A DNA stretch of 64,000 nucleotides, taken from contig JAZDSV010000006.1 of the NCBI GenBank assembly GCA_036784855.1, positions 97,001 to 161,000 of the forward strand, written 5' to 3'. This document shows, one piece after another, positions 12,796-61,738 of the stretch. Every line of letters begins with the position of its first letter. Position 1 is the stretch's first letter. Under the pieces are notes generated by a model, which was given only the letters and a program-made list of their open reading frames with translations, searched no databases and was not told where the DNA came from. Source of the stretch: Aphelidium insulamus. Lineage: Eukaryota > Aphelidiomycota > Aphelidea > Aphelidiaceae. The position numbers and the translations under genes were made by a program.

Positions 12796-15700
12796 ATGCT
12801 TGCGCTCGCTTGGCGCCCGCTCCGTGCTACCGCTGGATGGCGCACGCGGCTCGCTTCACACCGCCGCAGACATGCTAGTAGTAGTACTAGTACTAGTGCG
12901 CCTGATGCACCAGCCACGAGCATATTTCCCCCGCTGGACACGTTCCCCCGGCGCCACAATGGACCCAGCGACGCCGAGGTCAGCGCCATGCTTAAAGTGT
13001 GCAAGGTTTCGTCGTTGGAGGAGGCGGTTTCGCGCGCCATTCCCAGCCAGATTCTGATGAAGAGCGGTCTGGCGCTGACGGAAGGCGTGGGCGAGAAGGA
13101 GCTGCTGTCGCGGCTGCGTGTGATTGCCCAAAAGAACAAGGTGTTCAAGTCCTACATTGGCATGGGCTACCACGACTGTGTGGTGCCAGCCGTCATACAG
13201 CGCAACATTCTGGAGAATCCGCAGTGGTACACTCAGGCACGTTGCTTATCGCGATATGTATACTGCATGTATACTGATTGTATCCAAATTGACCCGTGAC
13301 AGTACACGCCGTACCAGCCGGAAATTGCGCAGGGTCGCCTCGAGTCTCTGCTCAACTTCCAGACCATGGTGGCCGACTTGACGGGAATGTCAATTGCGAA
13401 TGCATCGCTGCTTGACGAGGGTACCGCCGCTGGTGAAGCGATGCTGATGTGCTTTGCCGCCTCGAAGCGACTGCGCAAAACATTCTTCGTGGACAAGGAC
13501 GTGCACCCGCAGACTATTGCGTGTGTAAAGACACGCGCCGAAGGCTTCGACATGAATGTCATTGTGGGAGACTTGGCTGCGTTTGACTTTGACGCCAACA
13601 AGGATTCGTTGTGCGGCGTTCTAATTCAGTATCCCACCACAGACGGCCGCATCCTGGACTATGAGCCGTATGTCAAGCGGGCGCACTCCATCAACGCGCA
13701 GGTATGTGTAAAATATGAGTATAACTGCATAGTAATGCTAATTTATCCCAGGTTGTTTGCGCCACAGACTTGTTGGCGCTGACGGTGCTGAAGCCGCCGG
13801 GAGAGTTTGGATGTGACATTGCGTTTGGAAACAGCCAGCGCTTTGGTGTCCCGCTCGGGTTCGGCGGACCTCATGCAGCATTTTTTGCGTGCAAGGACGA
13901 GCACAAGCGTCGCCTTCCCGGGCGTCTAGTCGGCGTGTCGAAAGATGTGTCGGGCAAGACGGCGTACCGACTGGCGCTACAGACTCGTGAGCAGCACATT
14001 CGCCGCGAGAAGGCCACAAGCAACATTTGCACGGCGCAGGCGCTTCTGGCCAACATGTCTGCCATGTACGCCATCTACCACGGGCCGGATGGACTGCGCC
14101 AGATCGCCACTCGCGTCCACAACCTGACTGTGATTCTGGCAAATGCGCTGACGGAAATTGGCCTCCACGTGAAGAATGACACCTTCTTTGACACGCTGGC
14201 AATCGATTTGAAGTACAGCGCGGACGAGTTCATCATCAAGGCCGAGTCGGCCGGTATCAATGTGCGCAAGTTGGATCTGCGTACGGTGTCGGTGTCCCTG
14301 GACGAAACCGTGACCAAGGATGATTTGTTTAATCTGTTGAAGCTGTTTGCCGCTCCGTCCACCGACCAAAGCTTCCACGTCTCGGAGATGAAAAAGCCTG
14401 CTCTGCCCGACGTTGACGCCATTGCCGCCGCGCTGAATATCTCATTTGACGCCCCGCACGGTATACCCGATAACTTTCGGCGCACTTCGGCGTTCATGAC
14501 GCATCCACGCTTCAATATGTTCCACTGCGAGACGGAAATGCTGCGCTATATCTCGCGTCTACAGGCCAAGGACTTGTCGCTGGCGCACGCAATGATCCCG
14601 CTGGGCTCGTGCACAATGAAGTTGAACGCCACCACAGAGATGATCCCGGTCACATGGCCGGAATTTGCCAATATTCACCCGTTTGCTCCTCCGTCTCAGG
14701 CGGAGGGGTACACCACCATGCTGCAAGAGCTCGAGTATTCGCTGGGTGAAATCACTGGATTTGATGTCAGTGTACAATGATTTCTGGATATTGTATTAAC
14801 ACGGATATAGGCCGTCTCACTGCAGCCAAACAGCGGCGCGCAGGGCGAGTATGCCGGCCTGCGTGTAATCCGTGCATATTTAGAGTCCATTGGTGACAAG
14901 CACCGTAAGTAATGTATCCATACTCTTGATATGACTTGTAACTGATGATTGCCAGGAAATGTCTGTTTGATACCCGTGTCGGCCCATGGAACTAATCCCG
15001 CGTCGGCGTACATGGCCGGCATGGAAGTCGTGGTTGTCAAGTGCAATGAGCGCGGCAACTTGGACATGGAGGACTTCAAGGCAAAGCTGGAGCAGAACAA
15101 GAACAACCTGGCGGCAATGATGATCACCTACCCGTCAACATATGGATTTTTTGATGAGGGCGTCGAGAAGGTGTGCCGCATGGTGCACGAATACGGCGGC
15201 CAGGTTTACTTGGACGGGGCAAATTTGAACGCTCAGGTCGGACTGTGTCGCCCGGGTGACTACGGCGCAGATGTCTGCCATCTGAATCTGCACAAGACCT
15301 TTTGCATTCCGCACGGTGGCGGCGGACCGGGAATGGGACCCATAGGAGTGTAGGTTGACATCACTTACTGCCACAGACTATCTAGTGTATCTTTTCTGTA
15401 GCAAGACACACTTAGCACCGTTCTTGCCCGGACACCCGGTGGTCAAGACTGGCGGTGATCTGGCTATCGGGCCGATTAGTGCTGCGCCATTCGGATCTGC
15501 GAGCATTCTCTCGATATCGTGGGCATATATCAAGATGATGGGCGGCGCCGGCCTGGTCAAGGCGACACAACTAGCGATCTTGAATGCAAACTACATGGCA
15601 CGGCGCTTGGAGCCGCACTACAAGATTCTCTTCACCAACAAGAATGTACGCTTATTGACTAACTCTGCCCTTAATACACTCCGACTGATACTGCGGCAAT

Positions 15701-57843: not shown

Positions 57844-59915
57844 ATGTGTGGACTAGCTGCGCCACACAGGCAGCCTGAGGAGCGTGCAGGGGTTGCTGGA
57901 CATGAGCAGCTTATCACAGCTATGCCAGATATGCCGCGGCGTGTTGGCGCACTGTTTCCACCACACGGAGCAGCGCGGGCAATGCAGCAGTTCCGTTTGT
58001 GCTGCCCACGGCCACGGCTGCCATTGCTGTGCGGGCGGCCCTGGCGGACATGCGGGCCCAAGATGCCATTTTGCACGGCTGCCGGGCCACCGTCCAGCCC
58101 GGCAGACAGCACTGCTGCAGAGTCCATCACGTTGTCGTCGCCACCGCCGCCTCCCTTCACTGTCACCGAGCAAGTGTTTGGCCGGAGCAGACTGTACACT
58201 GTCGGCGCGGGCACAGGGTTCGACGACAGCTCGCGGCTCAACTGGCGCTGGCAGACGGGCGGCCGGTGGGACCGGGTGCCGATGCTGGCCAGCGTGGTGT
58301 CGTCGCTGCACGCCGCATTCCTGCCCGTGAACTATCCGCGCTCAGTGCACCGCTGCTACGTGCGGTTCCACGTGTGGCAGGCGCTGGAGACTCACGTGGC
58401 TGCTGTGGTCGGCGTGCTGTGCAACCAGGCCATGCTGGAGAGTCTGGGACTGTCACAGGGTGCTGCCACTGCCGGCGCCGTGGCCATTCAGGTCTGTGCA
58501 TGGAGTGTACTGAGTATATATCTGTATATATAGCTATATATATCTATATAGATGTCATATATGTGTACATATACACGTACATATGTGCATTGATATATGT
58601 ATATGGATGTATGTGTATTATTGTCTAACTCTTCAGTGGGTGCTGAAGGATGGGATCGCCGAGATCGGCAAGCTGCTCTTCATTAAGCGCTTTGCCAGAA
58701 GCTTCGGTAAGGGCAGTTATGCCACATATGTATATATATATATATATGTATATATGTAACATAAATAGACAGCCATCCAAAGACGTGGAAAGCCATTGGC
58801 GAGGTGCTGACCACGGTGGGATCTGGACTGCAGCTGTGCACCTTGCTCGTGCCACCGCACATGTTTCTGGCACTGGCCGCCACTGGCAACATTGCCAAAA
58901 GCATATCTTGGGGTCTCTGGGGCGCCACGCACATGGCAAGCATGTATATATATATATGTATGTATATATATATATATATGTGTGTGTGTATATGCAGAAC
59001 TTAGTGGCGATTTAAACAGCGCAGTGTTTTGTGCGCAACTTTGCCCGAGCCAACAATGTCGGCGATCTGACGGCCAAGAGCGAGGCACAGGGTGCGGTCG
59101 CACAGATATCGGGCTGGCTGGCCGGTATTGCGCTCATATCCTACTCGCACTCGGCCGCCTTTCTGTTCGCCGCCTACTTTGCCTATGTGCCGCTGCACTT
59201 TGTCGCCACGCGGTCCCTGATCGAGTCTGCGGAATTTGAAGTGCTCAACGAGGCCAAAGCAACTCTGATCATCAGCGAGTTGGTGGCACTACCGTGCACA
59301 ATGCTCACTGAAATCTTGCACTCACGCCCACATTCATAGATACCTGGCGAGTGGCAATGTATTGTCGGCGGCCCAACTGCGACCCATGGAGCGCTTCTTT
59401 GGCGAGTATATTGACACTCGGCGCACACCGCTTCCACTACTGGCACTGGGCACCACGATCGACCGTGCCTTCCGCTCTGGCCACGGCATCCGCTTGGCCA
59501 TGCAGGCAACACCGCTAGGAAAACTTTCTCATCGGCGACAATGGCGGCACCATGCACATTGTCTTGCGCGGAGATGCCAACGGTCTGTTCAGAACGCTGA
59601 TCACACGATAGCTGACCTGACACAATAATTACGTAGCGCGCGACATTCTGAAGGCGCTGATGACGGCCACGAGGTACCACCGCCTGCTGTCCGACAGTCA
59701 AGCTGCAGGCGGCATAAAGACTAGCGCCGACCCGCCAACTCTGTTACGGGAGAGCCACTCGTGGACCTGCTCGCACTTTGATGACTTTGCCGCCAAGCTT
59801 GCCGCGCAGGTGTGCACTGACCTGTCATTCGCTGCGACGCTGAGACTGACACACGCAGACCTGGGAAACGGACTCGGTGGTATTTAACGACGCGGGTCAT
59901 AGAGCTCACTGGTAG
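57844..59915 (+). CDS. RUSF1: RUS family protein (DUF647, RUSF1-like)
   Basis: Exons are 57844-58491, 58637-58706, 58769-58935, 59025-59278, 59340-59505, 59519-59582, 59637-59809 and 59859-59915; about 532 residues. DUF647 words: LHAAFLPVNYPRSVHRCYVR, HVWQALETHVAAVVGVLCNQ, AIQWVLKDGIAEIGKLLF, TWKAIGEVLTTVGSGLQLCT, FVRNFARANNVGDLTAKSEA, SEYLASGNVLSAAQL, ENFLIGDNGGTMHIVLRGD and RDILKALMTATRYHR. Several hydrophobic helices suggest membrane association. The intron at 58936-59024 has a GC donor. Between 59505 and 59519 the conserved frame changes across 13 bases (GC...AG), treated here as a break or micro-intron. The N-terminal start is uncertain (57844 or 57922). Cellular role is unsettled in fungi. 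Confidence 0.85.
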
Positions 59916-60201: not shown

Positions 60202-61738
60202 ATGAAGGAAGAGCTGCTGGACGCGGGTGTGGTTGCCACGCCGTCGACACCGCTTCAAACTGGCGCCACTCGACGAGAGCGCTGCCTCAAGGTGGATCTG
60301 CACACGCACATCCTGCCAAAGGTGCGTAGGTGTGTATCGCCGTGTGCATTGCACGCCAATAATCACGGCAGCACTGGCCGGTCTGGCCCGGAAAGTGCAG
60401 CTACGGCGGCGCGGATCTCGGCTGGACCCGCTGGCGACAACGAGCGAACAACGATGATGGACAGAGAACGCACCGGACCGTCGAGTGCAATTGCGCTGGT
60501 CGCCCCAGGCGCGATGCCGCAGGATTTAGCGAACGCCGTCCCGGTGTCGGCGTGCAGAAGTGCTCAGCACCGTGCCAGTGATGTTGCCTGTTGGTGCGTG
60601 TGCGTTATATAGTGCATCCTGGTAGCTGTGTGTGCTGACCTGTGCGTGCAGCTGTCGGGGCGAGGCAGAGGATGCGCTGGACCTGCAACGCGGTTCGGCA
60701 TGACAGTCATATTGCTGAAGTGGTCGGGAGAATCCTCAACGCTTCATTGGTCTTTGGCACTGTCTCCCATGGTACGTACCGTGCGTGTGCTTTATACACT
60801 CGCGCTCGCATGTGACCGCTATCCCTCACTGCCTGTCTTATACTGCTTAATATGGCGCCGCGGTCTTGCCGGTTCCGGAAACTGCGACGGTGCGTCACTG
60901 AGCTGGGTGACGCCCGGCGTACCGCAATCGGCTCTTGCATATCAACCGCACCGGAACCCGGACAATCCGGCGCTTGAACCGCTTCTGGCAGGCATGCTCG
61001 CAATGTTTGCGTGGTTATTTTGTAGTATATATTTACATTAATAGGCCGCCGAAGAACTGGGCGCCGCCATATTTGTGCACCCGTGGGACATGGAAATGGG
61101 TGGCAGAATGGCCAAGTACTGGATGCCGTGGCTTGTTGCGTGAGTGGCGATATATTATGAAGTTCATAATTTTGTGTATATTTTGATATCATGCTACTTT
61201 GTATGATATACACATTACCTAAGTATTCAACTTCACACTTGGCAGAATGCCTTGTGAGACGACGCTGGCCATATGCTCCATGATGTTTGGTGGCGTGCTA
61301 GAGAGGCATCCGCGGCTGCGAGTCGCATTTGCGCACGGCGGCGGTTCATTCGCCGGCACTGTCTCCCGCATTGAACACGGTTTCCAGGTGAGACCGGACC
61401 TGTGTCAGGTCGAGACCAAAAAGAGTCCACTGTCGCAAGTGGGAAACATTTGGGGTATCCATAGCACTTTGCTGTTATAAGATTGAATAACAGCCATGTA
61501 CACAGTTGACTCGCTGGTGCACGATGCCGACACATTGCGATTTTTGATAAAGAAGATGGCACCGGGTAGAGTGATGCTGGGCAGCGATTATCCGTTTCCG
61601 TTGGGCGAGCACCGTCCGGGCGCACTGATAGAGGAGCAGATGCCAGAGTTGGATGATGAAACACGCAGAGGACTGCTGGGCGGCAATGCGTGTGCGTTTC
61701 TCGGTGTGGACCCAACTCTATTTGCGCCGAGAAAGTGA
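60202..61738 (+). pseudogene. ACMSD: 2-amino-3-carboxymuconate-6-semialdehyde decarboxylase gene with a shattered frame
   Basis: Intact parts: exon 60202-60321 ends LKVDLHTHILPK (the metal HxH motif); exons 61045-61139, 61246-61454 and 61494-61738 read IFVHPWDMEMGGRMAKYWMP, WLVAMPCETTLAICSMMFGG, FAHGGGSFAGTVSRIEHGF, VMLGSDYPFPLGE and end LFAPRK. In between (60372-61040) the same family's words are present and in order, but they hop between frames: HWP, LARK, YGG, RLDPLATTSEQR, MMDRER, HRTVECNC, WSPQAR, QDLANA, VGVQ, VLSTVPVM, EDALDL, DSHIAEVVG, ENPQRFIGL, RRCVTELG, PGV, HIN, RNPDNPALEP. The acceptor near 60853 also looks broken by one base. The enzyme diverts the kynurenine pathway away from quinolinate and NAD. 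Called a pseudogene provisionally: local assembly error is a serious alternative. Confidence 0.75.

Follow-up and report, generated by a model that had tools for sequence, protein, structure and literature searches.

The window analysed here, a stretch of 64,000 bases, contains a gene for ACMSD (2-amino-3-carboxymuconate-6-semialdehyde decarboxylase) whose middle exons are broken by numerous changes of reading frame. We are highly confident that this frame-hopping is an assembly artefact, namely uncorrected single-molecule sequence lying within an ordinary gene. Roughly 600–720 bases in the middle of the gene would be essentially uncorrected, with an error pattern resembling that of single-pass PacBio reads. 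The pattern found is of the artefact type: the indels form one block that runs across exon–intron borders, most of the errors are insertions, hardly any are substitutions and the flanks are clean.

The gene occupies positions 60202–61738 of the window on the plus strand, with its ATG at 60202 and its TGA at 61738 as determined by three-frame reading. The window itself covers positions 97001–161000 of a contig of 534,198 bases, and the locus is distant from either contig end. Exon 1 (60202–60321), which carries the HTHILPK motif, read clean in three frames and showed no frame change in its aligned part, from 60262 on. Exon 2 (60372–60589, with an approximate 3′ end), exon 3 (60652–60771, with both borders approximate) and exon 4 (60856–60996, placed by three-frame reading) lie within the noisy patch. 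Exon 5 (61045–61139) is clean by three-frame reading and family alignment. Exon 6 (61246–61454) and exon 7 (61494–61738, ending in the TGA and preceded by an acceptor that may end at 61493 or 61505) are likewise clean by family alignment, the latter also by three-frame reading. In these two clean C-terminal exons the Amidohydro_2 profile (PF04909) matched above its cut-off. Together with the alignment to 16 and to 28 homologues, this match places the locus in the ACMSD family. Three-frame reading also located the HTH, HPWD, HGGG and DYPFPLG motifs, all of them in the clean exons, and these motifs presumably have a role at the metal site. At exon 4, no AG was found immediately upstream and no GT at the end given by the family alignment.

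Homologues were scored among the 7998 candidates with the most shared words, and the matches listed, at least 120 of them, were 47–59% identical. Those with names among the matches listed included proteins of Thamnocephalis, Calcarisporiella, Endogone and Amoeboaphelidium; among the aphelid proteins were P0009 from Amoeboaphelidium (357 aa) and P0011 from Paraphelidium (312 aa, 80% query coverage). P0001, the top-scoring protein hit, was rejected as a close relative, its score being due to an internal repeat, and a comparison of P0001 with the genome under study returned the ACMSD gene alone. A search of the same genome for a second ACMSD copy or haplotig found none, the sole match being the locus itself. 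The locus is best explained as an ordinary single-copy gene with a noisy patch in its middle.

From 60372 to about 61000, three-frame reading found conserved ACMSD words spread over all three frames, and it reproduced the words, their order and their frames as given in an earlier note on this DNA. Its description of exons 1 and 5–7 as clean was also borne out, for exon 1 by the family alignment from 60262 only. The DNA was then aligned to a family profile with introns and frame changes allowed and a penalty charged for each frame change. With 16 homologues, 21, 16 and 11 frame changes were obtained at penalties of 10, 14 and 18, respectively, and with 28 homologues, 21 and 13 were obtained at penalties of 10 and 14, respectively. 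All detected changes fell within 60381–60982, an interval that we take, irrespective of strand, as the extent of the noisy patch; neither the aligned part of exon 1 nor exons 5–7 contained any. As assembled, the reading frame of the gene is therefore not intact, with 11–21 frame changes in exons 2–4. The true edges of the patch lie between 60321 and 60381 on one side and between 60982 and 61045 on the other. Against the family profile, the patch scored 192.2. Its 60 dinucleotide-shuffled versions averaged 30.0 (sd 3.3) and reached 39.5 at most, and its reverse strand scored 28.9. With a score so far above the shuffles, the frame-hopping is present in the sequence and is not a product of chance.

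The direction of these shifts determines how they can be explained. Because a shift of +2 equals a shift of –1 modulo 3, a series of frames alone can be misread as a series of losses, and the distances between anchor words decide the matter. From HWP to ECNC the net change was 0 bases, and from ECNC to VLSTVPV it was +11. The latter interval is gap-free among the 16 homologues, so the +11 is measured against a gapless stretch. Exon 3 showed a net change of +3, two intervals in exon 4 showed +5 and +2, and an interval in the clean exon 5 showed 0. One further row, with a net change of 1, was left out because its anchor had been misplaced. Net gains between anchor words are the opposite of the "mostly single-base losses" that had been read from the frame series.

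Such a gene could in principle stay functional by way of numerous very short introns or of programmed ribosomal frameshifting, and the gene does contain short introns. However, the surplus per anchor interval is 0–11 bases, far under the 45–62 bases of the introns fitted in GLDC, another gene of the window. Ten to twenty programmed frameshifts in a single gene would also be without any precedent known to us. We regard this explanation as having next to no chance of being correct.

To quantify the errors, we fitted an error channel at the level of single bases, where any true base can be lost, changed or trailed by additional ones. Codon weights came from the family profile and from the codon usage of GLDC in the window. 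The best fit for the noisy patch was 7.9% insertions, 2.1% deletions and 0.45% substitutions, so that insertions exceeded deletions about 4-fold and deletions in turn exceeded substitutions. For the clean ACMSD exons, the fit returned 0 for all three rates. On a grid of rates, the points lying no more than about 2 log units below the best fit covered insertions of 6.5–11%, deletions of 0.5–4% and substitutions of no more than 3%. Fitted separately, exons 2, 3 and 4 gave insertions of 8.5%, 5.8% and 7.9%, deletions of 3.6%, 2.2% and 0%, and substitutions of 0%, 0% and 3.9%, respectively. The log-likelihood of the full model was 120.6; it fell to 71.7 without insertions, a cost of 49, and to 112.6 without deletions, a cost of 8. 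Over about 476 bases, the fitted rates correspond to about 35 surplus bases and about 10 missing bases.

The estimator was tested by corrupting the clean exons 5–7 in silico, with three runs per case. PacBio-like input returned insertions of 7–9% and substitutions of no more than 0.5%. Deletion-only input returned insertions of 0 in all three runs, which indicates that the estimator does not create false insertions. Input that simulated neutral decay contained 15% substitutions, and the fit underestimated these at 5–10%. Deletions of 2% were missed in two of the three PacBio-like runs. Given the missed deletions and the underestimated substitutions, the small fitted rates are rough.

The error rates bear directly on whether ACMSD is a true, recently inactivated pseudogene whose indels are real mutations, as the earlier note had allowed. 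Indels at the DNA level would yield identical frame-hopping, no second copy was found in the genome, and a parasitoid could dispense with an enzyme of tryptophan breakdown. In neutral decay, substitutions are expected to outnumber indels. The patch shows the opposite, with about 10% indels and about 0.5% substitutions, and the latter value stands below the 5–10% fitted for simulated decay. The detected indels are moreover limited to exons 2–4, with none in the aligned parts of exons 1 and 5–7, and end abruptly inside the gene, whereas neutral decay would spread them gene-wide; the flanks gave rates of 0. ACMSD proteins are also present in the aphelid relatives Amoeboaphelidium and Paraphelidium. 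A young pseudogene is accordingly disfavoured, and we consider it improbable, though less so than any of the other alternatives.

The nature of the surplus bases was examined within the same model. The best-fitting composition of the inserted bases was 17% A, 43% C, 30% G and 11% T, which gained only 1.7 log units over a uniform composition. When the surplus was restricted to a single base, T-only, A-only, G-only and C-only models reached 88.1, 91.9, 107.8 and 113.6, respectively, compared with 120.5 for the mixture. Allowing insertions to favour a repeat of the base before them did not improve the likelihood of the error model on the patch. The deletions in the patch fitted better as A-only, with a log-likelihood of 126.7 against 120.6 for uniform deletions, from about 10 deletions in all. 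This preference may stem from a peculiarity of base calling or from the small sample size.

These results also address RNA editing, in which the DNA would be as assembled and the transcript would be restored to frame by insertion of bases, as in Physarum, or by their removal. The conserved words are uninterrupted between shifts, as they would be in an edited functional gene. In Physarum insertion editing, the DNA lacks bases that are later added in the RNA. Insertion editing alone thus requires a DNA deficit, mostly of one kind of base, whereas the patch bears a net surplus and the model without insertions loses 49 log units. The suggestion of Physarum-like editing is contradicted on this point. 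Editing of the kinetoplastid type would show a surplus or deficit of T only; the T-only surplus falls far short of the mixture, while a T-only deficit alone fits nearly as well as the uniform model (118.7 and 120.6, respectively). The surplus bases are of mixed type, and editing would have to remove about 35 bases, add about 10 and handle the splice-site damage at exon 4 as well. RNA editing in general appears to us extremely improbable. Its most specific form, in which a nuclear aphelid ACMSD transcript would be mended by removing about 35 and adding about 10 mixed bases, perhaps favouring the restoration of A, is slightly less credible again, and we know of nothing similar in which mixed bases are both removed and added.

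The rest of the assembly served as a control. In GLDC (12.7–16.4 kb of the window), the same aligner placed 2 frame changes over 1000 matched codons at a penalty of 14, and both touch a single intron edge with the appearance of a GC donor. At a penalty of 10 there were 5 changes, the extra three lying in one weakly conserved stretch and disappearing at 14. The intron that follows the NPQWYTQ exon of GLDC, at window positions 13237–13302, probably has a GC donor; otherwise the aligner needs four extra bases.

Upstream of ACMSD, at window positions 58100–59887, lies a RUS-type gene in which PF04884 (UVB_sens_prot) matched in one exon. Its introns are rich in TATATG repeats, and it is clean by eye.

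Beyond the window, 74 pairs of adjacent matches, drawn from 39 loci of the CCT, HSP70, DHC_N2 and kinesin families, were scanned for faults; the DEAD family was left out for its short domain. In 73 of the 74 pairs, the DNA exceeded the family length by at least 30 bases, an intron-sized surplus. The exceptional pair was in a DHC_N2 dynein heavy chain (L044, on the minus strand of contig C106 near 90080), where one frame change falls in an A run without an intron-sized gap. This change could be either a true mutation or an error left over from long-read assembly. One kinesin, whose matches contained numerous stops, proved on direct reading to be intact, with short introns. No second dense noisy patch was found in GLDC or in the 39 loci of the four families. 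Going by these loci, dense patches are rare in this assembly.

An uncorrected stretch of read within an ordinary gene remains our preferred explanation, and the published error rates allow it to be compared with known platforms. In raw PacBio reads of E. coli, insertions amount to 9.42%, deletions to 3.86% and substitutions to 1.27% (PMC6588853). The rates in the patch follow the same order, and their magnitude is nearly equal. For PacBio RS II, a substitution:insertion:deletion ratio of 6:55:39 is given in an excerpt of PMC9713900, and against this ratio the patch is richer in insertions. The better fit of A-only deletions is likewise unexpected under plain random error. For ONT, the same excerpt emphasises a deletion bias in homopolymers (PMC9713900). 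By this comparison, such a bias would suit the single change on contig C106 and not the insertion-rich patch. The previous suggestion of uncorrected long-read deletions in one patch of the assembly is thus supported as regards uncorrected errors, while the errors themselves are mainly insertions.

The patch probably arose where consensus building or polishing failed locally, owing either to thin coverage or to a gap bridged with one read, and the real ACMSD gene would then keep an open frame. The published Aphelidium insulamus genome is described, in the portion of the report available, as 18.93 Mb in 274 scaffolds with 52.05% GC, obtained from Nanopore data at 9.6-fold and Illumina data on amplified DNA at 95-fold coverage, with polishing by Racon and Pilon (PMC10608142). 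The assembly analysed here comprises 17.95 Mb in 169 contigs. As far as that description extends, the published project combined Nanopore and Illumina data with no PacBio, so either the present assembly is a different one or the attribution to PacBio is wrong.

GLDC also indicates the lineage of this genome. Among the matches listed, its closest named relatives were two Amoeboaphelidium species, at 72 and 71% identity, followed by Paraphelidium at 68%. This proximity to Amoeboaphelidium suggests that the genome is probably that of an aphelid and not of a true fungus, and the description of ACMSD as a fungal nuclear gene is therefore doubtful. Aphelids are considered sister to Fungi (PMC10608142).

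The noisy patch most likely reflects faulty sequencing rather than a new biological phenomenon. A seemingly polished contig may hide a few hundred unpolished bases, which can make a conserved gene seem lost. The patch should not be taken as evidence that ACMSD was lost in this lineage, which lies near the origin of fungi. Even where raw reads are lacking, a family alignment combined with a base-level error model tests the sign of the shifts and helps to distinguish read error from decay or editing.

Compared with known systems, the locus shares with the ACMSD family an exon 1 (from 60262) and last three exons that align, and it differs from the family in that exons 2–4 are closed in the assembly. 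With insertion editing in the mitochondria of Physarum it shares a spacing of a few tens of bases between frame changes, with the conserved words in between left intact; here, however, the surplus bases are mixed and the gene is of nuclear type with introns. Its likeness to unpolished sequence of the PacBio CLR type is found in errors that are dominated by insertions, poor in substitutions and about 10% in total, that ignore gene structure and that leave genes broken by frameshifts. It differs from such sequence in extent, as only about 600 bases are affected here, in a genome that looks good at nearly all other sampled loci.
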